The notes beneath the pieces are model-generated. The model saw only the letters and a list, made by a program, of their open reading frames with translations. It ran no database searches and had not been told where the DNA came from. Made by a program: the position numbers and the translations under genes. From positions 1 to 32,126 of the IMG/VR virus record IMGVR_UViG_3300027706_000032: a stretch of DNA of 32,126 bases. The stretch is one strand, 5' to 3'. The stretch comes from a virus. Positions within the stretch are counted from its first letter, which is position 1; the number at the start of each line of letters is the position of its first letter. Of the stretch, positions 3,101 to 32,126 are shown one piece after another.

Positions 3101-4462
3101 CTCTCCCTGCGCTCCGGTCGGAGGGTGCGCGGCGGGGGTCGATGCCGCTTCTCTCTCCAGATCCGCTATAGCGCGGGCGCGAGCGAGATTGCCCTTGAGC
3201 ACGAAGAACCCCTTGAGCCCCGGCAACAGGAGAAGCGTGTTTGTTACGGTCAGCTGAGGATCGCGCTTGAACTCTTCGAACCACCAGGCCCAGACATTCT
3301 CCGGGATCTTCTCGGCCAGCAGGAGCGTGGCCTTCGCGGGAGGGATGTTGTGCGCCCTTGCCCACGCATAGTAGTCTTCGATGTACTGGCGCGCCGCCTG
3401 AACGGTTGGAAAGGCGTCCTTCTCGTAGGCTTTCGCCGCGGCCACGTGGCCCGCGACGACCTGTTCAGCCTTTTGGCGGTCTCCGATGAGCGTATAGTAC
3501 ACGCCCTGAACGATCCCCGCGACATCGTTCGCGATCCCTCCGAGAATCGCCACCGCATCGTGGTGAATGGCGGCGATGGGCTGGAGAGCTCCCGCGACGA
3601 ACTGGCCTCCGACGATCAGGGGCTGCCGCACGACGGGGGTCACGCCGGGGAATGTCAGGGCCCGAGCGAACTTGTTCCACAGGCGGTCGACGGCTTCAAC
3701 GTAATTGTGCGTCTCGGTTGGGAGCGCGGCCCCCTTGTCGATGTTCGCAATGACCCGGGAGTACCCGCCATTGTAGGCCGCGAGCGCCATCTTCCATGCC
3801 GTTCGGTCGTCCATCGCGGGGTAGCGCGTCGTCAGATCATCGTGCAGCCTCCGCAGATAGAGCGCTCCGTACAGGAGCTGGAGACCTGGCTTGGAGGCAA
3901 CCTGCTGGGGATCGACACCGAGCCCTCTCACGGTCTCCGGCATGAGCTGGGTCAGCCCGAACGCTCCCGCCTTCGAGACGGCCTTCGGATTCCACCCCGA
4001 CTCCTGAGTGACGAGTCCCAAGAACAGAGGCACCGGGATCCCGAACGCTTGCGCCGTCTTCACAGCTTGTGCGTACCAGGGCGAACGCGGAATGCCGGGC
4101 GGAGGCTCCGGCGCGGTCGGTGTCGGAGCAGGCGCCGACGGCGCTGTGAGCCGGACCCCGCCGGGCGGGAGCTGCTCGCGGGTTGGGATCTCGCGCACAT
4201 CGGCGCCGGCGCCGGTCGGGGGGATCGCGCGCGTGCCTGCGTCATCCTCGCTCTTCTGAAGAGGAGGCGGTGCGCCTCTTACAGAGATGATAGGCGAGGG
4301 CGTGCCTGCGTCATCCTCGCTCTTCTGAAGAGGAGGCGGTGCGCCTCTTACAGAGATGATAGGCGAGGGCGTGCTAGGCGCATCTCGCACGGATCCAATC
4401 AGCGGGGACTGCGACGGAATCTCGCTCGGCGCGCCTCTGACAGCGATGATGGGATCAGCCAT
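119..4462 (-). CDS. Large ejection/internal virion protein with lytic transglycosylase (SLT) domain
   Basis: 1447 residues. Residues about 128-260 form a soluble lytic transglycosylase domain that would cleave peptidoglycan during DNA entry: the catalytic glutamate is E154 in TQESGWNP, followed by GAFGLTQLMPET and the ALAAYNGG motif. Before it lies a proline-rich leader (residues 1-125) with four copies of P(I/L)I-x-VR-x-AP and an exact 69-bp tandem duplication. The remaining ~1,180 residues are mostly helical and resemble no enzyme I can name. Size and N-terminal SLT placement parallel T7 gp16. I chose ATG at 4462, not the GTG at 4483, because it forms a TGATG junction with the upstream gene and has AGGTGA in front. 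It is last in the ejection block, as expected for a gp14/gp15/gp16-like order. The domain call is firm; virion location is inferred. Confidence 0.85.
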   Translation of the reverse strand: MADPIIAVRGAPSEIPSQSPLIGSVRDAPSTPSPIISVRGAPPPLQKSEDDAGTPSPIISVRGAPPPLQKSEDDAGTRAIPPTGAGADVREIPTREQLPPGGVRLTAPSAPAPTPTAPEPPPGIPRSPWYAQAVKTAQAFGIPVPLFLGLVTQESGWNPKAVSKAGAFGLTQLMPETVRGLGVDPQQVASKPGLQLLYGALYLRRLHDDLTTRYPAMDDRTAWKMALAAYNGGYSRVIANIDKGAALPTETHNYVEAVDRLWNKFARALTFPGVTPVVRQPLIVGGQFVAGALQPIAAIHHDAVAILGGIANDVAGIVQGVYYTLIGDRQKAEQVVAGHVAAAKAYEKDAFPTVQAARQYIEDYYAWARAHNIPPAKATLLLAEKIPENVWAWWFEEFKRDPQLTVTNTLLLLPGLKGFFVLKGNLARARAIADLEREAASTPAAHPPTGAQGEAAHAAARAATSAVAQKVLTPTPPATRPGAPVGATPLRPEVRVPAPQIVRSPLAEPLGETPAGTWRVAEHAGGKTQIRVVQSPGTLSPGLPPQPTVTLHPAPLPEPHWRLDPPGPSPRVGELPRDLQRLISPRTGKATYAEKAAEATAKREMAESVGAVRGRSPAIDPQSGVTYTDSVYTSRGPTEANRPPQGPNEVKEQVADALTKISPYRYIVNVPPELRAIRPILQPLVSALTRVNFPGYLISKDAQVLREGGLTEEGVKGLEAVKGAESYVSTVQFYIEKIRRFLVDEGRRVGVVTKADWERVGRQVLTPDPNAPEGVKRMASYVTAVLDALYKAEKAVGYVYPKRDRYLALFFKNPEEIPTALAKLWIERGDALLPGYLAKTAGIENVGDFLQTYRGLLPNHTPKAAFMKVAEAAGKTAEEAASLADGFENELSKDLFGESGSYLEVGTKISEERRGLITKFHHVKPQKLNHALAERIGLKPVYDPLDIITRRITHSADATATHSILNVFENLGLLSPVKLPGYEQVLSVSELRPYTMYAPKPLVEVLDRYVGPSGGRPLWGIPSDLRKLIIGWNPIFHGRTLIGAAASIAPDILLPWKWPDVIRAYEEFRRLDPIYAEMKQNGLDVDVLHREFSTFSGELFNRLAERYPWVRALATSTIILPVGKAVYRVAEDLLFQRLAPALQGFAYKRLKALLMEKDVYENGVRVRLPEERAGRVAAALVATRFGSIPRSMLPLWLQKYGNTLLFAIHYTFGEYASLAQSGTRIGGKLVGGRYLPAAVSPEERLVMMKVANAINFRAMVLQFLWTNSIQYAVTGTWAANNPGYHKFDIRIGEKIDKRKRKGEYFRIKEYTTDAEILGYHLAEYAYQEYLKRAGDPQAKPDFRPVVWEAKSKSGVPVRMLADAITLLGPGHKPVDFEDLAKLVGSDILPTPIVNIFNLKAGLQIPRDQLWLYLFGLTPFYATEGQVSGGLGLPGLPKGPKPPSLGGR
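4231..4368 (-). repeat. Exact 2 x 69-bp tandem repeat inside the ejection protein gene
   Basis: Positions 4231-4299 and 4300-4368 are identical over 69 bp. The unit is 23 codons, so the reading frame is kept and the protein gains a second proline-rich segment ending in LQKSEDDAG. A partial third unit begins at 4369. Identity at every base, including third positions, points to a recent duplication. Confidence 0.93.
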
Positions 4463-25038: not shown

Positions 25039-25405
25039 GGAGCTGCGGACCCGGGCCTGTTGCCGAGAGGAATTCCTCGGTCAGAGCCTTGTGCAGCCAC
25101 AGGAGGACATGCAGCCACCACTCAGGGCGACTCACGAGGTCGTCGGCAAGCGCGTTGATCGCTTTCTCCTGCTCCGAGTTTTCCGGCTCCTCCTTCGTCT
25201 CCAGCCTGTGGACCTGGTGGATCAGCTCGTGCGTTACGCTGTGGATCTGCTCGTCCACCGAGCGATTGCGCTCGGCGTCGATGTACACCTGGATCGTGCG
25301 CGGGTCGATCATCGTCGCGGCGAGCGTGTCCGGCCCCACGATGTGGGGCACGGCCCTCTCCAGGGCCGCGAGGTACACGGAGAGGCGCTTCCGCTTCAGG
25401 GTCAC
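24995..25405 (-). CDS. Small HExxH metallopeptidase-like protein
   Basis: 136 residues. HSVTHELIHQVH (about 55-66) is a zincin HExxH motif (H59, E60, H63), and E80 in EQEKAINALADDL could be the third ligand, as in gluzincin-type minimal metallopeptidases (ImmA/IrrE and SprT-like groups). The preceding strand TIQVYIDAERN and following helix fit that fold. The last 20 residues are basic (AREPRPRRRN). It may cleave a virion or host protein; no substrate is known. GTG start with a GTGA overlap with the upstream zinc-ribbon gene. Located next to packaging genes, so head maturation is one possibility. Confidence 0.6.
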   Translation of the reverse strand: MTLKRKRLSVYLAALERAVPHIVGPDTLAATMIDPRTIQVYIDAERNRSVDEQIHSVTHELIHQVHRLETKEEPENSEQEKAINALADDLVSRPEWWLHVLLWLHKALTEEFLSATGPGPQLHAHKAREPRPRRRN

Positions 25406-25653
25406 GACTGCACGACCCCCGTCATGATCGGGCTCGGCCTGTCGAGCTGGCTGAGCCCGCACACGGGGCAGACGAGCGGGTGAACGACGACCGTCTCCGT
25501 CAGGACCGCCAGCTGCCCTCCTCGGGTCGATCCCGTCGGGATCTGGACCTGGAAGAACTGGGAGGCGGCGGAGATGTCCTCCTGGCAGCGCGTACAGAAT
25601 ATGCGGAGCTGCTTCTCCTCGATCTTCCTGCGCTCGTCCTCGCTGAGCGTCAC
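25402..25653 (-). CDS. Zinc-ribbon protein, unknown
   Basis: 83 residues with two Cys pairs, CTRC (20-23) and CPVC (62-65), about 40 residues apart: a four-cysteine zinc ribbon. Between them is a strand-rich segment (QFFQVQIPTGST, LAVLTETVVVHPL). GTG start with GGAGG about 9 nt upstream. It may be a small DNA-, RNA- or protein-binding factor. The following gene start overlaps its stop. No family recognised. Confidence 0.55.
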   Translation of the reverse strand: MTLSEDERRKIEEKQLRIFCTRCQEDISAASQFFQVQIPTGSTRGGQLAVLTETVVVHPLVCPVCGLSQLDRPSPIMTGVVQS

Positions 25654-25678
25654 AGCCCGCCGCCTCCCCTGAGAAGAA

Positions 25679-25882
25679 TTAGAGCTTGATCGGAACCTTC
25701 GTCACGTACCGGAGCACGAGGTTCCCCAGGACCGTGATCAGGACCTGCGTCTGCGGATCGATATTGCCCGGCTTATAGCCGAAGAACGTGCTCGCCACGT
25801 AGGTCGCGAGGTTCAGCACGTTCCACCACACGGTCTTGGACGCATACCACGGCTTGGCCTCTGTCGTCGGGGTCGTCGCCAT
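25679..25882 (-). CDS. Holin-like membrane protein
   Basis: 67 residues with the pattern PWYASKTVWWNVLNLATYV at the N-terminus, a short polar loop (GYKPGNIDPQTQ), then VLITVLGNLVLRYVTKVPI. Two hydrophobic helices and the KPWYxSKTVW start with an LRxxTKxPI ending are typical of a small phage holin-like family. Holins open the inner membrane at lysis. It has an excellent AAGGAGGTGACAT ribosome site. No endolysin adjoins it here, so the lysis role is inferred from sequence pattern. Confidence 0.6.
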   Translation of the reverse strand: MATTPTTEAKPWYASKTVWWNVLNLATYVASTFFGYKPGNIDPQTQVLITVLGNLVLRYVTKVPIKL

Positions 25883-25885
25883 ATG

Positions 25886-26527
25886 TCACCTCCTTTCCTT
25901 CCGAGTATACCGCTGCGGGGCCGGAGCGCGCAAGTACTGGTCCCCCACGATGTTGATCACGCGCACAAGCGCCTGCGAAGCCAGGTCGATGTCCTCTATG
26001 TCCACCTCGCACACCGAGTGATGCGTGCGGTTCTCCTCAACAGGGAAGACAGGGACGATGAACGAGAGAACAGGCACCTTCTCGTCCCGCCAGAGCCACG
26101 CCTCGTCCTCTTCCTCGGGGCGTCCCGAGAACAGGCGCACAGGAACTCGCCACCCCTCGGACGCGAGGGTCTCGCGCAGGTCGGATACGACATCGGCAGG
26201 AACGTTCGCGACGTTCTCAATGACAGCGGTCTCCTCGTAATAGCGAGGACCAGCCGCCACGTCGACGACGATGACAAGAGACGGGCATGATCGCACAGCG
26301 TCCACAAGCGACGGCGGGAGGGGCCTCATCCACTCCTCTCCGCGGTGATGGAAGACCTGCACCGCCTCTTTCTCCACGAGCTCCCGCAGAACCTGGGACC
26401 TGTAGACTGCAAGATATGTGACGAGAATCCCGACCCAATTGTCCAGAAGACCAGCGTGCCTCCCCCCGAGAAACGCGGGCACGCCAGCCTCCCGCACGGT
26501 GTCCTGGTGAGCCGAGAGAAGGATCAT
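25886..26527 (-). CDS. M28/M42-like zinc peptidase or deacylase
   Basis: 213 residues with a full set of candidate ligands of the zinc peptidase family (M20/M28/M42 clan): H7 and D9 in LLSAHQDTV, the bridging D29 in GGRHAGLLDNWVGI, E64/E65 in HHRGEEW (general base and ligand), D89 in VIVVDVAAG, and H169/H170 in THHSVCEVD. SGRPEEEDEAW and HSxxExVDxxDLxxA at the C-terminus follow the same clan. It is short, with no dimerisation domain visible. Substrate is unknown: peptide, amide or deacylation. Start is ATG in an ATGA overlap with the previous gene. Neighbours are holin-like and membrane genes, so a lysis-linked role is possible but unproven. Confidence 0.65.
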   Translation of the reverse strand: MILLSAHQDTVREAGVPAFLGGRHAGLLDNWVGILVTYLAVYRSQVLRELVEKEAVQVFHHRGEEWMRPLPPSLVDAVRSCPSLVIVVDVAAGPRYYEETAVIENVANVPADVVSDLRETLASEGWRVPVRLFSGRPEEEDEAWLWRDEKVPVLSFIVPVFPVEENRTHHSVCEVDIEDIDLASQALVRVINIVGDQYLRAPAPQRYTRKERR

Positions 26528-26781
26528 TTATTGTCTGGAGCCCCCCTCGGCTCAGCGATCATGCGGCCCGGAACGCAGATCTCCGGCCCCCGCGGCGCGC
26601 AGGGGCGAGAGGCCGCCTCGACGACGAGCGCGGCGATCACGAGGTGCCGCGGCCACGACCCGTGCGCGCCCCAGGCCGTCACGGACCAGTTCGTGCTGAA
26701 GCCTGCGCCCGGGAGAACGCTCGGAGGGCGCAGGAGAAAGAGCGACGCAAGAATCGCCACGAGCTGAATCAAGCCTCCCAT
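26524..26781 (-). CDS. Small membrane protein, unknown
   Basis: 85 residues (82 if the TTG at 26772 is used). Hydrophobic segment LIQLVAILASLFLL near the N-terminus, a second moderately hydrophobic stretch HLVIAALVVEAA, then a Cys/Pro/Gly-rich C-terminus. A longer in-frame reading upstream is antisense to nothing but lies inside the DUF4406 gene and is rejected. The ATG at 26781 has GGAGGG immediately before it, too close; the TTG at 26772 has better spacing and a TTGA junction with the upstream stop. It is next to the peptidase and holin-like genes, possibly a lysis accessory. Confidence 0.45.
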   Translation of the reverse strand: MGGLIQLVAILASLFLLRPPSVLPGAGFSTNWSVTAWGAHGSWPRHLVIAALVVEAASRPCAPRGPEICVPGRMIAEPRGAPDNK

Positions 26782-27521
26782 CCCTCCAGAATTGAGATCG
26801 TCTTCGCGTAGCCAGCGATATCGACAAGCGTGTCCCGCGTCACGCGGTGGTGCAGCCTCGACAGCTTCAGCAGGATCATGAACACGGCCACCTCTTCGGG
26901 CGAGAACTCCCTCCCCGAGTACGCGCTCCACAGCTTCGCCGTGTGCTCGAAGTTCTCGCGCGGGTGGCCGTACGAATCCCGCCTGGCCGTCGAGACGACT
27001 CGGTCGGCCTCGCGGCAGATCCCCTCCTGCGCGGCGGCGACCGTTGTCGGAGGAGAGGTCGTGATGAACGGCGTGATCTGCTCGGGCGGAGGCGGCGGAA
27101 TCACGGCCCTTGCATCGTAGTCGTACACCGGAATCCCGAGCGCGTGCGCGATGGCGATCTCCAGCTGCGCGCCCCGCGAGGCGCCCCACCCGGGAAGCGC
27201 GAACACGGTATCGGCCTCAAGGAGCATCGTGATGTCTTCGCGCATGTACTTCTCGCGCGGCAGGTCCGTCCGGCCCCCAAAGTTCCGCGCGGGGTTGAGC
27301 ACGCGGTAGCCGAGCGACCGGAGGTTTTCCTCCGCCTCGTGGAACGCGGGGAAGTTCCAGTCCGGGTACCCGCTCATCGGCCCCGAGATGTACGCGACCT
27401 TCTTGCTCGTCTCCTCTCTGCGGCGATCCGGCGCCCCTTCCTCCTCAAACTGCGATCCCCGAAGGGGGGCCCATGGACCCTCAGTCTTTTGAGTGTCTGC
27501 CTTCTCTTTGTGGCGAACCAT
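26769..27521 (-). CDS. DUF4406-DUF6378-type fusion protein
   Basis: 250 residues. After ~40 basic, unordered residues, the N-terminal domain (about 41-137) reads VAYISGPMSGYPDWNFPAF, YRVLNPARNFGG, YMREDITMLLEADTVFALPG and WGASRGAQLEIAIAHALG, the nucleoside deoxyribosyltransferase-like DUF4406 pattern. After a Pro/Thr linker, the C-terminal domain (about 165-250) has DSYGHPRENFEHTAKLW, VFMILLKLSRL and LVDIAGYAKTISIL, the DUF6378 pattern. Both occur in phages near nucleotide metabolism, separately or fused; a nucleotide-salvage or hydrolysis role is likely but not shown. ATG at 27521 with GGAGGAGG 8 nt upstream. Confidence 0.7.
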   Translation of the reverse strand: MVRHKEKADTQKTEGPWAPLRGSQFEEEGAPDRRREETSKKVAYISGPMSGYPDWNFPAFHEAEENLRSLGYRVLNPARNFGGRTDLPREKYMREDITMLLEADTVFALPGWGASRGAQLEIAIAHALGIPVYDYDARAVIPPPPPEQITPFITTSPPTTVAAAQEGICREADRVVSTARRDSYGHPRENFEHTAKLWSAYSGREFSPEEVAVFMILLKLSRLHHRVTRDTLVDIAGYAKTISILEGWEA

Positions 27522-27611
27522 CTCCCCAGCCTCCTCCGCCGTCTCGATCTCCTGCCCCGCCCCGGCCTCGGCCGGAGCGCGTCGGCGAGCGTGCGCCCGA
27601 CGTTCCGGATC

Positions 27612-27908
27612 TCAATCGCGATCTCCGGCTTCTCCGGCTCCGGTGACGACGGCGACGAGGTCCTTCTCTGAGACGACCGTGTAGCGCTCTCCTGCGACCT
27701 CGAACTCCGGCCCCGCGTAGATCTCATAGATCACGTAGTCTCCGATCCCCACACTGTCCACGTCGGGCGATGTCGCGACGACCCATCCCTGCAGGCACGG
27801 CCAGTCCTCAGACGGCAGGAGGATCCCTGTCCTCCGCCGCATGGGGCGGCGGTCCTGCCGAATCAGCACGCGGTCCCGGATCGGCTGGACCTGCTCTTCG
27901 AACTCCAC
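27612..27908 (-). CDS. GroES-like co-chaperonin (Cpn10)
   Basis: 98 residues, the usual Cpn10 length. VQPIRDRVLIRQD (7-19) is the conserved N-terminal strand, RRTGILLP (25-32) the mobile loop with an ILL tripeptide in place of the GroEL-binding IVL, and VGIGDYVIYEIYAG (53-66) plus YTVVSEKDLVAVV the C-terminal signature. No GroEL gene is seen, so it would pair with the host chaperonin, as T4 gp31 does for capsid folding. The start used is GTG at 27908; an upstream TTG at 27965 would extend it through another gene. Overlaps the 62-residue gene by 101 nt. Confidence 0.8.
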   Translation of the reverse strand: MEFEEQVQPIRDRVLIRQDRRPMRRRTGILLPSEDWPCLQGWVVATSPDVDSVGIGDYVIYEIYAGPEFEVAGERYTVVSEKDLVAVVTGAGEAGDRD

Positions 27909-27996
27909 GCAGGTCGTCCAGGATCCGCCTAATCTCCCGGACCTCTCCAAGAAGCTCGGCGACAATGCGTCCCACCTCCGGATCGCGGACGAGCAT
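27808..27996 (-). CDS. Small helical protein overlapping the Cpn10 gene
   Basis: 62 residues. Residues 1-35 (MLVRDPEVGRIVAELLGEVR, then EIRRILDDLRGV) look like a true coiled-coil peptide; from about 36 on the peptide is Pro/Ala/Arg-rich and lies antiphase to the Cpn10 coding region. The ATG at 27996 forms TGATG with the upstream gene, with GAGGA 11 nt before it. The long overlap (101 nt) may mean it ends within the Cpn10 gene simply because no stop occurs earlier. Confidence 0.45.
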   Translation of the reverse strand: MLVRDPEVGRIVAELLGEVREIRRILDDLRGVRRAGPADPGPRADSAGPPPHAAEDRDPPAV

Positions 27997-28262
27997 CAGT
28001 AGATCACGTCCTCGGGCTCGTACGGGAGCTCGCCCGACCTCAGCTTCTCGTCGAACAGGTCGCGCTCCGGGCTGTGCTGGTTCCCGAGCGCCGACTGGCT
28101 CTTTCCGGCCCCGCCCTCGCCCACGATCCGCACGATGGGCGGCGTGTACCGCCGCGCCATCGCGCGCCCGCACGTCTCGCACCGGGGCGGCGCATGGTCG
28201 ACCGGAGCCGCGATCTCGACGGCGATCCGGCAGTCTCGGCACTGGTAGACGTAGAGTGGCAT
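27996..28262 (-). CDS. FmdB-type zinc-ribbon protein
   Basis: 88 residues. MPLYVYQCRDC starts the FmdB/CxxC_CxxC_SSSS pattern, with cysteines at 8, 11, 28 and 31 and the RRYTPPIVRIVG segment after the second pair. The C-terminal 40 residues are acidic and unmatched (NQHSPERDLFDEKLRSGELP). Family members are thought to be small regulators or metal-binding factors. ATG at 28262, chosen because the longer in-frame N-terminus is arginine-rich out-of-frame noise. Stop overlaps the next start. Confidence 0.7.
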   Translation of the reverse strand: MPLYVYQCRDCRIAVEIAAPVDHAPPRCETCGRAMARRYTPPIVRIVGEGGAGKSQSALGNQHSPERDLFDEKLRSGELPYEPEDVIY

Positions 28263-28294
28263 GGCGCTCCCTCGGCACCGTCCCCGGCGCCGTG

Positions 28295-28537
28295 CTAGGT
28301 CTCGATCCTCACCCAGGCGTGGACGTCGTAGTACTCGTCTCCGCTCTGTGTGAAGAACCGCCGCGGCGTCCTCTGCGAGACCGCCTCGACGAGCGTCGGC
28401 GACGCCGCGAAGAACGACGTCACACCCTCCGCCACGACCGTCCCCTCCTTCGCGACGACGAACCGGCGTGCATCGTCCATGAAGACCTCGTACACGTCCG
28501 AGACGTTCTCGGCCTCGCGGGCGGGCACGACGAACAT
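28295..28537 (-). CDS. Small protein, unknown
   Basis: 80 residues: MFVVPAREAENVSDVYEVF, FVVAKEGTVVAEGVTSFFAA, then EYYDVHAWVRIET. Mixed alpha/beta, acidic, no motif. Start uncertain: the ATG at 28537 has only a weak ribosome site, and an in-frame upstream region is arginine-rich. It lies in the early operon between the AbrB-like and zinc-ribbon genes. Confidence 0.5.
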   Translation of the reverse strand: MFVVPAREAENVSDVYEVFMDDARRFVVAKEGTVVAEGVTSFFAASPTLVEAVSQRTPRRFFTQSGDEYYDVHAWVRIET

Positions 28538-28577
28538 GCCGCCCGAGCACAGGGCGCGGCTCCCGCGCCTTGCGCGG

Positions 28578-28820
28578 CTACCACGCGATCCTCTGCGACG
28601 GGTCGACGACATCGAGAATGTCCTCCTCCTTCGGCTCCGGAGCGGAAGGTCCATCGATGGTCGCCTCCGCCCTCCGCAGGATCAGCGTCTTCCCGGGGCC
28701 GCGCTCGATCACGATGTCGGTCCCCGGCTCGACGCCGATCTCCGCGAGGAGCGGGAGCGGCACGACCACGAGCCCGCGCTTTCCCACGCGGCGCCGTCCG
28801 CCCTTGTAGACTCTCGACAC
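28578..28820 (-). CDS. AbrB/SpoVT-like DNA-binding protein
   Basis: 80 residues. KRGLVVVPLPLLAEIGVEPGTDIVI (split as KRGLVVVPLPLLAEIG and VEPGTDIVI) with following LILRR is the AbrB swapped-hairpin DNA-binding pattern: VxKRGxVVIPxxLxxxLGIxPGD. The N-terminus is basic (KGGRRRVGKRG), and the acidic C-terminal tail (APEPKEEDILDVVD) may form contacts. These proteins act as dimers or tetramers on DNA, usually as transition-state regulators or antitoxins. First gene of the minus operon, beside the divergent control region, so autoregulation is the natural idea. GTG at 28820 with GAGGAGGGA upstream; a 146-residue in-frame version would read through the repeat/promoter DNA and is rejected. Confidence 0.7.
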   Translation of the reverse strand: MSRVYKGGRRRVGKRGLVVVPLPLLAEIGVEPGTDIVIERGPGKTLILRRAEATIDGPSAPEPKEEDILDVVDPSQRIAW

Positions 28821-28859
28821 GAGACATCCCTCCTCTCGCACTGACTTCGCCGTCCAGCC

Positions 28860-28887
28860 TTGACCGCCCGGTGTCGGCGGGTATATC
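28860..28887 (+). promoter_or_regulatory. Candidate promoter for the helicase gene
   Basis: TTGACC (28860-28865), 16-bp spacer, TATATC (28882-28887). The spacer contains the operator-like CCGGTGTCGG at 28868-28877, so a bound protein would block RNA polymerase. It reads toward the plus-strand gene, leaving about 140 nt of leader. Confidence 0.5.
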
Positions 28888-28963
28888 GTGGGGGTCGGCG
28901 GAACCTCACGCGCACCCGAGGCTCCGGCACCGGAGACCCCGACACCGGAGGATCCGACACCGG
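28868..28963. repeat. Operator-like repeats, CCGAYACCGG, in the divergent control region
   Basis: Copies at 28924-28933 (CCGGCACCGG), 28939-28948 and 28954-28963 (both CCGACACCGG) stand exactly 15 bp apart in one orientation. An inverted exact copy lies at 28868-28877. A weak fourth begins near 28909. They occupy the region just downstream of the minus-strand -10 and inside the plus-strand promoter spacer, typical of an operator or iteron set shared by divergent genes. Confidence 0.7.
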
Positions 28964-28971
28964 GCGACTCC

Positions 28972-29000
28972 ACAGTACACCCCCTGCTCCGGGGTGTCAA
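28972..29000 (-). promoter_or_regulatory. Candidate promoter for the minus-strand operon
   Basis: On the minus strand, a perfect TTGACA (29000-28995), a 17-bp spacer, and TACTGT (28977-28972), which keeps the key T-A-----T positions of the -10. Transcription would start near 28965, running into the repeated operator sites, so repression by a protein bound there is likely. It is the only good sigma70-like match found in this gap on that strand. Confidence 0.6.
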
Positions 29001-29029
29001 GAGAGAGCGCCCCCACAAGGAGGCATGAC

Positions 29030-31117
29030 ATGGCTCGCATCCGAGACATCTCGTCCCACCGGTTCCTCGACGCGGCGCTCTCCTACGCCGAGCTCGGCTG
29101 GTCCGTTCTCCCGCTCGCTCCCCGCAGCAAGGCCCCCGACGGCGAGCTCGCCCCGCACGGCGTCCACGACGCCTCGCGCGATCCCGCCGTCATCCGCCGC
29201 TGGTGGGAGCGCCGCCCCGACGCGAACGTCGGGATCGCCTGCGGGCGCCCGAGCGGCGTCGTGGCGCTCGACGTCGATCCGCGGCACGGCGGCGACGCCA
29301 GCCTCGCGCGCCTCCTCGGCGAGCGCGGCCCGCTCCCCCCGACCCCGATCTCGCAGACGGGCGGAGGCGGAGCGCACATCGTCTTCCGGTACGCGCCCGA
29401 GCTCTCCTCGGCCAGGCTCGTGCGCGCGGGCTACCCCGGCCTCGACCTCAAGGCGGACGGAGGCTACATCGCCGCTCCGCCGTCCGTCCACCCGGAGGGC
29501 GGCGAGTACGCCTGGGAGGACGGCCTCTCCCCGTGGGACGTGGGCTCGGCCGACCCTCCCGCGTGGCTGCGCGACCTCCTCACCGAGACCCGGCACGCCG
29601 TCCCGAGAGGCGGCGGATCGTGCCTGTCTGATGAGATCGTCCAGGCGATCGCCTCGATCCTCCGGCCCGCGTGGACTCCCGACGGCGGGGTCCGGCACCG
29701 CCTGGCGCTCGGGATCTCCGGCATGATGGTCCGGGCCCACCTCCCGCTCGACGACGCGCGCCGCGTGCTCGATGCCATCGTGGGAGACTCCGGCGACGAC
29801 GAGGGCGACGACCGCCGCCGGGCGCTGTGGGACACGCAGCAGGCGTTCGTGTCCGGCCGCGAGGTGGCGGGCGCGACGCTCCTTGAGCCGATCCTCGGGC
29901 AGGACGCCGTCGCGCGCCTCCGCGACCTCCTGGGGACGGCGCGGCGGACTCTCGGGACGCGGCCCGTCATGCAGAATCTCGGAGGCCTGGAGCGCGAGGA
30001 GATCCGCTGGCTCTGGCACCCGTACATCCCGCTCGGCAAGCTCACGCTTCTCGATGGCGATCCCGGCCAGGGCAAGACGTGGGTGGCGCTCGCCATCGCG
30101 GCGCTCGTGACGCGCGGAGGCCGGACGGAGCTGCTCCGCTCCCGGCGGCCGTCCGAGATCGCTCGGACGTCCGAGATCGCTCAGACGTCCGAGATCGCCG
30201 CCGCGGCGCCAGCCGTGGCCGCCTCCGGCGTCATGGCCGCCTCCGGCGTCATGGCCGCCTCCGGCGTCATGGCTGGCTTCCTCGCCGAGCCGGGGAGCGT
30301 CCTGTACCTCTCGGGGGACGACGGCGTCCGCGACACGCTCGTGCCCCGCCTCCAGGACCTCGGGGCCGACCTCTCGCGCGTGACCGTGCTCCTGGGGAAG
30401 GGCGAGCTGGGGAGCGACGGGGTCCGGCCCGTGACGCTCGCCGACCTCGCCGTCCTGGAGGAGGCGCTTCGGAGCCTTCCGGACGCCCGCCTCCTCGTGC
30501 TCGACCCCATCACGCAGTACCTGGGGCGGAAGGTCGACATGTTCCGGGGCAACGAGACGCGGCCGGTCCTGGAAGGTCTCGCGAGGCTGGCCGACGCGCA
30601 CCGCGTGGCCGTGCTCATCGTCCGCCACCTCACGAAGACGCAGCGGGACCGCGCGATCTACCGCGGCCAGGGCAGCATCGACATCACGGGGATCGCGCGC
30701 TCGGCGCTCCTCGTCGGCCCGGCCTCGGCGTCCGACCCGTGCGCGAAGGCCATCGTCCACATCAAGAGCAACCTCGCCCCGACCGGTCCCGCGAGGGGGT
30801 TCCGGCTCGACCCTCCGGGTCCGAGCGGGCCGGGCGGATTCTCATGGACGGGGGTCGCGGACGGCGTCACCGCGTCCTCCATGCTCAGGCCCGATGCCAT
30901 CGAGGACCCCGAAGACGTGAAGGCGTCCCTTGACGATGCGCGGGCGTTCCTCCTCGAAACCCTTGGCGGAAAGGCCGTGCCTGCCGAGGATGTCCTCAAG
31001 CAGGCGAAGGCAGTCGGGATTTCCAGAGCGACCCTCTTCCGCGCGAAAAAGCAGCTCAATGTCCGATCCCTCCGAAAAGGAGAAAAATGGCTGTGGAACT
31101 TGCCACAAATGACATGA
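29030..31117 (+). CDS. Primase-polymerase / RepA-type helicase fusion
   Basis: 695 residues. N-terminal bifunctional primase-polymerase domain (about 12-180): GWSVLPLAPRSKAP, VVALDVDPRHGG with D81/D83, GGGGAHIVFR with H116, and GLDLKADGGYIAAPPS. A middle segment (about 200-300) is helical. The RecA-like helicase domain (about 325-580) has Walker A GDPGQGKTW (343-351), Walker B RLLVLDPITQYLG (487-499) and VLIVRHLTK. The C-terminus (about 625-690) looks like a winged helix (LKQAKAVGISRATLFRAKK). It would prime and unwind DNA at the origin. ATG with AAGGAGG 7 nt upstream; the long reading upstream of it is non-coding. A 36-residue insert of repeats follows Walker A. Confidence 0.85.
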   Translation: MARIRDISSHRFLDAALSYAELGWSVLPLAPRSKAPDGELAPHGVHDASRDPAVIRRWWERRPDANVGIACGRPSGVVALDVDPRHGGDASLARLLGERGPLPPTPISQTGGGGAHIVFRYAPELSSARLVRAGYPGLDLKADGGYIAAPPSVHPEGGEYAWEDGLSPWDVGSADPPAWLRDLLTETRHAVPRGGGSCLSDEIVQAIASILRPAWTPDGGVRHRLALGISGMMVRAHLPLDDARRVLDAIVGDSGDDEGDDRRRALWDTQQAFVSGREVAGATLLEPILGQDAVARLRDLLGTARRTLGTRPVMQNLGGLEREEIRWLWHPYIPLGKLTLLDGDPGQGKTWVALAIAALVTRGGRTELLRSRRPSEIARTSEIAQTSEIAAAAPAVAASGVMAASGVMAASGVMAGFLAEPGSVLYLSGDDGVRDTLVPRLQDLGADLSRVTVLLGKGELGSDGVRPVTLADLAVLEEALRSLPDARLLVLDPITQYLGRKVDMFRGNETRPVLEGLARLADAHRVAVLIVRHLTKTQRDRAIYRGQGSIDITGIARSALLVGPASASDPCAKAIVHIKSNLAPTGPARGFRLDPPGPSGPGGFSWTGVADGVTASSMLRPDAIEDPEDVKASLDDARAFLLETLGGKAVPAEDVLKQAKAVGISRATLFRAKKQLNVRSLRKGEKWLWNLPQMT
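30151..30271 (+). repeat. Two in-frame 18-bp tandem repeats inside the helicase gene
   Basis: GTCCGAGATCGCTCGGAC-type units start at 30151, 30169 and 30187 (encoding SEIA-rich hexapeptides). A different 18-bp unit at 30218, 30236 and 30254 encodes AASGVM three times. They form a flexible insert between Walker A and Walker B and keep the frame. Confidence 0.9.
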
Positions 31118-31321
31118 GAGCAAGAGTATCAGGCGCCAATTGTCAATTTTTAAGAGTATCAGCGGGGCGCCTGATACTCTTAAAAGTTGACAATTGCACG
31201 GCGTGCAATCGTCAATTTTTAAGAGTATCAGCGGGGCGCCTGATACTCTTAAAAGTTGACAAATTGGCGCCTGATACGCTTAAAAATTGACAATTCTCCG
31301 AAAAGGAGAAAAATGGCTGTG
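31070..31321 (+). repeat. 26-bp duplication of the helicase gene end
   Basis: Positions 31070-31095, inside the last codons of the helicase gene, recur exactly at 31296-31321 in the non-coding region. The block contains AAGGAG, four A's and ATGGCTGTG. The second copy is followed by TAA, giving the three-codon reading Met-Ala-Val-stop. Confidence 0.9.
31137..31196. repeat. 26-bp inverted repeat, one mismatch, 8-base loop
   Basis: Arms 31137-31162 and 31171-31196 pair over 26 bp with one G-U-type mismatch; loop CGGGGCGC. A second hairpin of 21-bp arms with the same loop follows at 31211-31231/31240-31260. No following T-run; both may be binding-site pairs, cruciforms or mRNA 3' ends. Confidence 0.85.
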
Positions 31322-31417
31322 TAAGTTTTGGCGCCTGATACTCTTAAAAGTTGACAAGTGCACGGCGTGCAATCGTCAATTTTTAAGAGTATCAGCGGGG
31401 GGTATATAGAGTATGAG

Positions 31418-31472
31418 ACTCTTTGATACTCTTGAAGGGGGAGGGGGGAAGAGTATAAGAGTATCAAAGAGT
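31418..31472. repeat. 16-bp perfect inverted repeat with purine-rich loop
   Basis: ACTCTTTGATACTCTT (31418-31433) pairs exactly with AAGAGTATCAAAGAGT (31457-31472), separated by 23 nt that are mostly G and A (GAAGGGGGAGGGGGGAAGAG). Part of the origin-like array; polypurine loop may favour unusual DNA structure. Confidence 0.85.
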
Positions 31473-31519
31473 ATCAGCACTCTATATATAGCGCCTGATA
31501 CTCTTAAAAATTGACAATT

Positions 31520-31542
31520 ACACGGCGTGCATATCGCCGTGT
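31520..31542. repeat. 8-bp hairpin at the end of the array
   Basis: ACACGGCG (31520-31527) pairs with CGCCGTGT (31535-31542), loop TGCATAT. The related perfect palindrome GCACGGCGTGC occurs at 31196-31206 and 31360-31370. Confidence 0.75.
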
Positions 31543-31595
31543 GTCGAGGATCCTCCGCACGTCCTCCTTTGTCACGCGTGAGCAAAAAGTACACT

Positions 31596-31771
31596 CTGGC
31601 AGCTCCTTCGCAAAGGCGATGCGAAGACCCTCGTTGGGCTCGGTCCTTGGTGGGACCGCAATGAGCGGTCGCTCACTGAGCGGTCGCTCACTGAGCGGTC
31701 GCTCACTGAGCGGTCGCTCACTGAGCGGTCGCTCAGTGCTGGCAGCTCCTTCGCAAAGGCGATGCGAAGAC
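31596..31771. repeat. 33-bp direct repeats bracketing a 15-bp palindrome array
   Basis: Exact 33-bp copies at 31596-31628 and 31739-31771 (CTGGCAGCTCCTTCGCAAAG and onward) surround a hairpin (CGGTCC 31641-31646 with GGACCG 31653-31658) and the tandem palindromes. The distance between copies is 143 bp, not a multiple of three, so they are not a coding repeat. Confidence 0.92.
31662..31735. repeat. Five tandem 15-bp palindromes TGAGCGGTCGCTCA
   Basis: TGAGCG-GT-CGCTCA starts at 31662, 31677, 31692, 31707 and 31722, each 14 bp with a one-base spacer (C). All five are identical. Fixed 15-bp phasing puts copies on nearly opposite faces in turn of the helix, suitable for cooperative binding by a dimeric protein; an operator or partition/origin element. 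Confidence 0.92.
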
Positions 31772-31775
31772 TTCG

Positions 31776-31931
31776 CTAGGACCGACCAGTCCGAGCGCTC
31801 TGTCCAGAAAGGTCGCCGGAAGGTTCTCCGGGCCTCGTGACGCGGGGTTTCTGAGGCATATCCGTTCTCGACCCGTCTTCTGCCACGAATCGATGATATC
31901 TATAGAAGGCGATGCCCCTGGATCCGGTCAT
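31776..31931 (-). CDS. Possible small protein at the right edge
   Basis: 51 residues from the ATG at 31931, with GGAGA about 6 nt upstream: MTGSRGIAFYRYHRFVAEDG, then SRTDMPQKPRVTRPGEPS. A longer in-frame reading to 32021 crosses palindromic DNA. No motif, no conserved neighbours; it ends beside the 33-bp repeat. Could be a chance open frame in regulatory DNA. Confidence 0.25.
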   Translation of the reverse strand: MTGSRGIAFYRYHRFVAEDGSRTDMPQKPRVTRPGEPSGDLSGQSARTGRS

Positions 31932-31993
31932 ACCCGTCTCCACATTGAGAGTCTGGAGGGGGTCCCATCGCGATCGCGCGCGCGGAAGGGACG

Positions 31994-32096
31994 ATACCCC
32001 CCGGGGTATGCGGCGGCGCACGCGAACGCGTTCGCGTTCGCGGCGGCGTTCGCCTTGTCAAGGCGTTCGCCTTGTCAAGGCGTTCGCCTTGACACG
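31994..32096. repeat. Palindromes and 17-bp tandem repeats at the right edge
   Basis: ATACCCC-CC-GGGGTAT (31994-32009); a perfect 16-bp palindrome CGCGAACGCGTTCGCG (32021-32036); and GCGTTCGCCTTGTCAAG twice in tandem (32046-32062, 32063-32079) with a partial third. CCTTGTCAAGG inside each unit is itself near-palindromic. They continue the repeat-rich character of the region. From the last gene end to 32126 no other feature is supported. Confidence 0.85.
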
Positions 32097-32126
32097 CGCG
32101 GAGGCTTGGGAATTACGGCCTAGCGC

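Follow-up and report, generated by a model that had tools for sequence, protein, structure and literature searches.

The window analysed here, a viral contig of 32,126 bases, carries near its right-hand end a gene that combines a PrimPol domain, a RepA-type helicase and a C-terminal winged helix (wHTH), followed by an array of short repeats (Table 1). The helicase ORF is open from 27770; ATG 29030 is probably the real start because a Cpn10/GroES-like gene (27612-27965, - strand; Pfam PF00166, 1.9e-13) overlaps that end on the opposite strand. A gene at 26769-27521 (- strand) fuses DUF4406 (nucleoside 2-deoxyribosyltransferase-like) to DUF6378. The virion genes, encoding terminase, portal, capsid-like and lytic transglycosylase proteins, lie on the - strand as well. 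A 69-bp tandem repeat of 23 codons (4231-4374, 2.1 copies) occurs near the N-terminus of a 1454-residue transglycosylase SLT-domain protein. No Rfam family or tRNA was matched.

Table 1. Features of the replication gene and the DNA downstream of it, in window coordinates (+ and - after a position give iteron orientation).
Feature	Position	Strand	Details
PrimPol, RepA-type (AAA_25) helicase and C-terminal wHTH (probable start)	29030-31117	+	Pfam PF09250 4.1e-42 (PrimPol), PF13481 5.4e-25 (AAA_25)
C-terminal wHTH, putative iteron-binding domain	30908-31099	+	Helices including SRATLFRAKKQL, then beta hairpin; AlphaFold2 model and alignments
First near-palindrome, centre about 31200	31122-31281		Iterons 31122+, 31152+, 31172-, 31221+, 31241-, variant 31271-
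Stray copy of helicase gene 3' end	31296-31327	+	94% identical to 31070-31101; between the palindromes
Second part of the array	31335-31519		Iterons 31336-, 31385+, 31414- (variant), 31424-, 31457+, 31467+, 31496-
Core	31402-31489		Iteron pairs with 10-bp spacing (31414-/31424-, 31457+/31467+), inverted halves around GGGGGAGGGGGG
Repeat-rich DNA up to contig end	31540-32126		TGAGCGGTCGCTCAC x4.9, GGCGTTCGCCTTGTCAA x2.8

Other IMG/VR records supply two near-identical contigs, G001 and G002, which end at 25065 and 25046, before the replication module; 25066-32126, including the array, is covered by a single contig. That the two ends lie within 20 bp of each other may mark a module that varies, or a limit of assembly. 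G001 overlaps window positions 1-25065 and adds 9283 bp to the left, with genes on the + strand for a SNF2-type helicase, a UDG-DNA polymerase A fusion and a PD-(D/E)XK nuclease. The fusion is one ORF (L006:1425-3662, +) that joins a uracil-DNA glycosylase superfamily domain to a family A DNA polymerase. The primase-helicase had been described as the only replication gene, which holds within the window but not once the overlapping contig is taken into account.

We modelled the last 393 residues of the protein with AlphaFold2 (48 sequences, mean pLDDT 85.9). The C-terminus of the model consists of three helices and a beta hairpin, a confidently predicted winged helix (residues 325-388, pLDDT mostly 92-97) that would provide the C-terminal dsDNA-binding domain of an initiator. 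The AAA_25 domain and the RepA helicase fold assign the helicase part to the RSF1010 RepA type: RSF1010 RepA (1g8y) is its best structural match (Z 21.2, rmsd 3.0, 213 residues) and was also matched by profile (E 3.7e-8). Nearly all matches in the VIA-align structural list span model residues 10-310 and thus stop short of the winged helix, and phmmer returned no convincing solved relative of the C-terminal 79 residues. A single-protein search of IMG/VR found no close relatives of the primase-helicase. Within the helicase domain, a pair of in-frame 18-bp tandem repeats (30146-30273) forms a loop that is modelled with low confidence (model residues 78-108) and is missing from most aligned relatives.

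Multiple short repeats start immediately downstream of this gene. Its stop codon occupies 31115-31117, the first copy of the 10-mer AAGAGTATCA lies 4 nt past it, and 5 nt separate it from the first AGAGTATCAG at 31123. The array thus directly follows the primase-helicase gene as the preliminary description had stated, although the six-base gap given there is 5 nt by coordinates. AAGAGTATCA is the better repeat unit, with 11 exact copies plus AAGAGTCTCA in 31118-31540, whereas the maximum multiplicity of any 10-mer in 200 local shuffles was 2. AGAGTATCAG has nine exact copies in 31123-31504 (five forward, four reverse) and none elsewhere in the window; with up to one mismatch it has 14 copies in the array. 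Most iteron copies are contained in a 25-bp element, CTGATACTCTTAAAAATTGACAATT. Both the earlier count of at least 11 copies in both orientations and the contrast of an AT-rich array with a GC-rich genome (42.8% GC for 31118-31540 vs 65.5% for the window) were confirmed; the extent of about 380 bp has to be revised, since the right-hand limit is 31519.

The iterons are arranged in two near-palindromes with a DNA fold z of -23.7, the one centred at 31444 being made up of the last six iterons of the second part. TATATAG and CTCTATATATAG flank the core outside its inverted halves and are a possible candidate for the sequence that is unwound. The copy of the helicase gene 3' end inside the array indicates that duplication and inversion have reshaped it; in addition, 31122-31139 is repeated in inverted form at 31328-31345. 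In register, the array copies are 61-98% identical to one another. The size of the palindromes and the internal rearrangement, including the stray gene-end copy, are peculiar to this array. In the repeat-rich DNA farther downstream, TGAGCGGTCGCTCAC is a 15-bp palindrome (31596-31771) with two exact 33-bp repeats on either side of its tandem copies, and GGCGTTCGCCTTGTCAA is repeated at 32045-32091, near the contig end. A search of related contigs for the array, proposed in the preliminary description, yielded no second contig carrying it: exact array pieces were not found in IMG/VR, and 31100-32126 had no DNA similarity to phages and plasmids. A looser hairpin pattern matched 36 contigs that we treated as unrelated, as HMMs detected neither this helicase nor PrimPol in any of them and almost all had a single AT-rich hairpin.

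Arrays of this kind recur at the same place in relatives of the helicase. Relatives were taken from IMG/VR, GTDB genomes, phages and plasmids, and each was anchored at the end of its winged helix; an array was called from significant repeated 8-mers (p<=0.01) in the following 250 nt. Among 146 non-redundant relatives, 58 (40%) have significant repeats just past the wHTH. The share is 0.7-7% when 16 other offsets are taken, and 334 other long-ORF ends give 7.8%. The 60% that lack a significant array include many stand-alone helicases of Firmicutes elements. The repeat sequences vary by replicon (CGAAGGTGATCA in L134, TTGGCGAGATGG in L062, AGATGCTCA in L192), and some arrays extend into the coding tail of the helicase gene. 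The commonest 8-mer is present in both orientations in 46 of 59 arrays, this array included; a mixed direct and inverted layout is therefore the norm among such replicons and not unusual, as had been supposed. Many arrays share AAGRNNNNCA, which AAGAGTATCA of the window fits. This motif was chosen after some loci had been seen; in the 106 loci uninspected at that time the gene end has 1.11 occurrences per 250 nt and other positions about 0.3, and those of the loci with arrays reach 2.37 at the gene end. It accounts for part of the arrays only, and an exhaustive scan by presence put its reduced form no higher than 641 of 6228. TA tracts are found near 9% of array loci and at none of the other offsets tested in those loci. 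L072 and L087 have long alternating TA tracts beside their iteron arrays, 250-400 nt past the winged helix, as in the window. G-runs are not enriched at the gene end.

Across 56 arrays, iteron similarity correlated with wHTH similarity more strongly than with that of the helicase core (Mantel r 0.27 and 0.16). Given core and GC, the partial r for the wHTH was 0.23 (0/500 permutations) and that of four other 54-residue helicase segments ranged from -0.02 to 0.11, in tests that remove shared ancestry only in part. Such co-variation would be the trace expected of a protein-DNA recognition pair.

Cumulative GC skew, which had been suggested as a check, has its minimum beside the array: in the 41.4-kb composite of window and G001 it falls at window position 30789, about 330 bp away, in a flat basin of about 29.7-31.7 kb. 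The skew range of the composite was reached by 0 of 1000 block shuffles. This evidence is suggestive only because circularity is unproven and skew is unreliable in the 13 other array-bearing contigs. The array is among the most extreme 10% of positions in four of 14 array contigs, this one counted, where 1.4 are expected; GC skew is no reliable array marker in the relatives.

The preliminary description had named the array as a candidate phage origin, and gene-end enrichment in relatives, iteron-wHTH co-variation and the adjacent skew minimum all support this. From the computed features, that is the array and its position, the protein domains, the gene-end arrays of relatives and the way these co-vary with the winged helix, we infer with good confidence that 31122-31519 is the initiator-binding part of a phage replication origin, whose AAGAGTATCA iterons would be bound by the winged helix of the helicase encoded upstream. 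By analogy with SaPI Rep, Cch2, PICI and pRN1, the winged helix of the PrimPol-RepA-type helicase would bind the iterons, the inverted iteron sets would seat helicase rings, AT-rich DNA nearby would melt and be unwound by the helicase, and the fused PrimPol would prime synthesis by a polymerase that the phage or the host encodes. Origin activity and direction, like binding, melting and the loading of rings, are all proposed.

Dense sites beside initiator genes often serve control, and co-variation with the wHTH indicates binding at most, not initiation. The array could accordingly be an autoregulatory or copy-control site at which the helicase or another phage protein limits its own synthesis or locks origins to one another, with replication beginning elsewhere. 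We consider this unlikely, as the array lies 3' of the gene, away from its promoter, and TTGACA as a promoter element gave a single promoter-like match in 31000-32126, about the number expected by chance. The GC-skew minimum is located here, and gene-end sites are origins in SaPI, PICI and pRN1. Somewhat less probable still is an array without a role in replication that arose by recombination, or by the selfish or neutral multiplication of short REP/BIME-like palindromes. The gene-end copy and the flips do testify to rearrangement, the contig has further tandem palindromic units (31662-31735, 30146-30198, 32045-32091), and our IMG/VR searches found the array in no other viral contig. However, arrays occupy the same place in relatives whose repeats are unrelated in sequence, and these sequences track the wHTH. 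Expansion may nevertheless have enlarged this copy of the array.

That the hairpins act as a transcription terminator or an RNA-level signal after the primase gene is very improbable. Their folding potential is very strong, and one terminator-like match lies inside the array (31193-31209, + strand), but terminator-like sites number 3 against 1.1 expected, Rfam gave no match and such repeats are rare at other gene ends. In pRN1, the terminator after the gene is dispensable and the larger stem-loop is required (PMC4234260). An assembly or amplification artefact, in which chimeric joining made inverted repeats near the contig end, can hardly be expected even though only one contig covers this region and the near-identical ones stop short of it, since the copies diverge, unlike simple chimeric copies, and the same kind of array occurs in independent contigs.

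The wider finding is a rule that places arrays at the gene end of RepA-type (AAA_25) helicases. On balance, we lean towards the view that such helicases with a C-terminal winged helix, whether carried by phages, by plasmids or by integrated elements and across many bacterial phyla, are self-contained initiators, each with a private origin of mixed-orientation iterons at or overlapping its own 3' end, and that wHTH-iteron co-evolution would allow sequence alone to locate origins and perhaps to read the recognition code. The open-access literature searched contained no description of such gene-end origins for AAA_25 helicases. Origins of uncultured phages are rarely known, and a positional rule, to look just past the winged helix of a RepA-type helicase, which holds for about 40% of the diverse relatives, would supply many phages and mobile elements with origins open to testing. 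The natural variation of iterons and winged helices would at the same time serve as a data set for the recognition code.

RSF1010 RepA shares the helicase fold with the protein described here, but 1g8y aligns with model residues 10-306 only and therefore does not cover the winged helix (325-388). The iterons of RSF1010 are handled by a separate protein, RepC. In satellite phage P4, the primase-helicase alpha likewise binds short iterons, at the origin sites (ori, crr); its helicase family differs from AAA_25.

In SaPI/PICI, SCCmec Cch2 and pRN1, a known or proposed origin occupies the same gene-end place, with helicases unrelated to this one. The C-terminal domain of SaPI Rep recognises iterons directly 3' of its own gene (PMC7581432), and in PICIs the initiator gene is followed immediately, on its 3' side, by an origin with two sets of iterons that supports the replication of plasmids (PMC6092414). 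An origin directly 3' of the helicase gene, two sets of short iterons and C-terminal recognition would be common to these elements and the present array. In contrast, SaPI Rep helicases belong to other families, whereas here a RecA-fold RepA-type AAA_25 helicase is fused to PrimPol in a tailed phage. In SaPI/PICI the iteron sets flank an AT-rich melting region; here there are two palindromes rich in iterons and a core with inverted halves, which has a G-rich centre and has the TA tracts outside it. Moreover, SaPI/PICI are satellites without a full virion gene set, unlike this contig with its terminase, portal, capsid-like and lytic transglycosylase genes. The C-terminal domain of Cch2 likewise binds short direct repeats just 3' of its own gene, where the origin is putative, as recognition is here, but Cch2 is a D5-type helicase with a separate polymerase-primase and three 5-nt iterons, and binds without need for inverted repeats (PMC7581432). 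pRN1 ORF904 resembles the present protein in combining PrimPol, helicase and winged helix, although its helicase is of the SF3 and not the AAA_25/RecA-fold kind. Its element is a single stem-loop of about 100 nt, for which the passages considered describe no iterons; the PrimPol replicon requires this stem-loop 3' of its gene, where the essential, potentially hairpin-forming DNA lies within 166 bp, and similar stem-loops have been suggested for some phages (PMC4234260).
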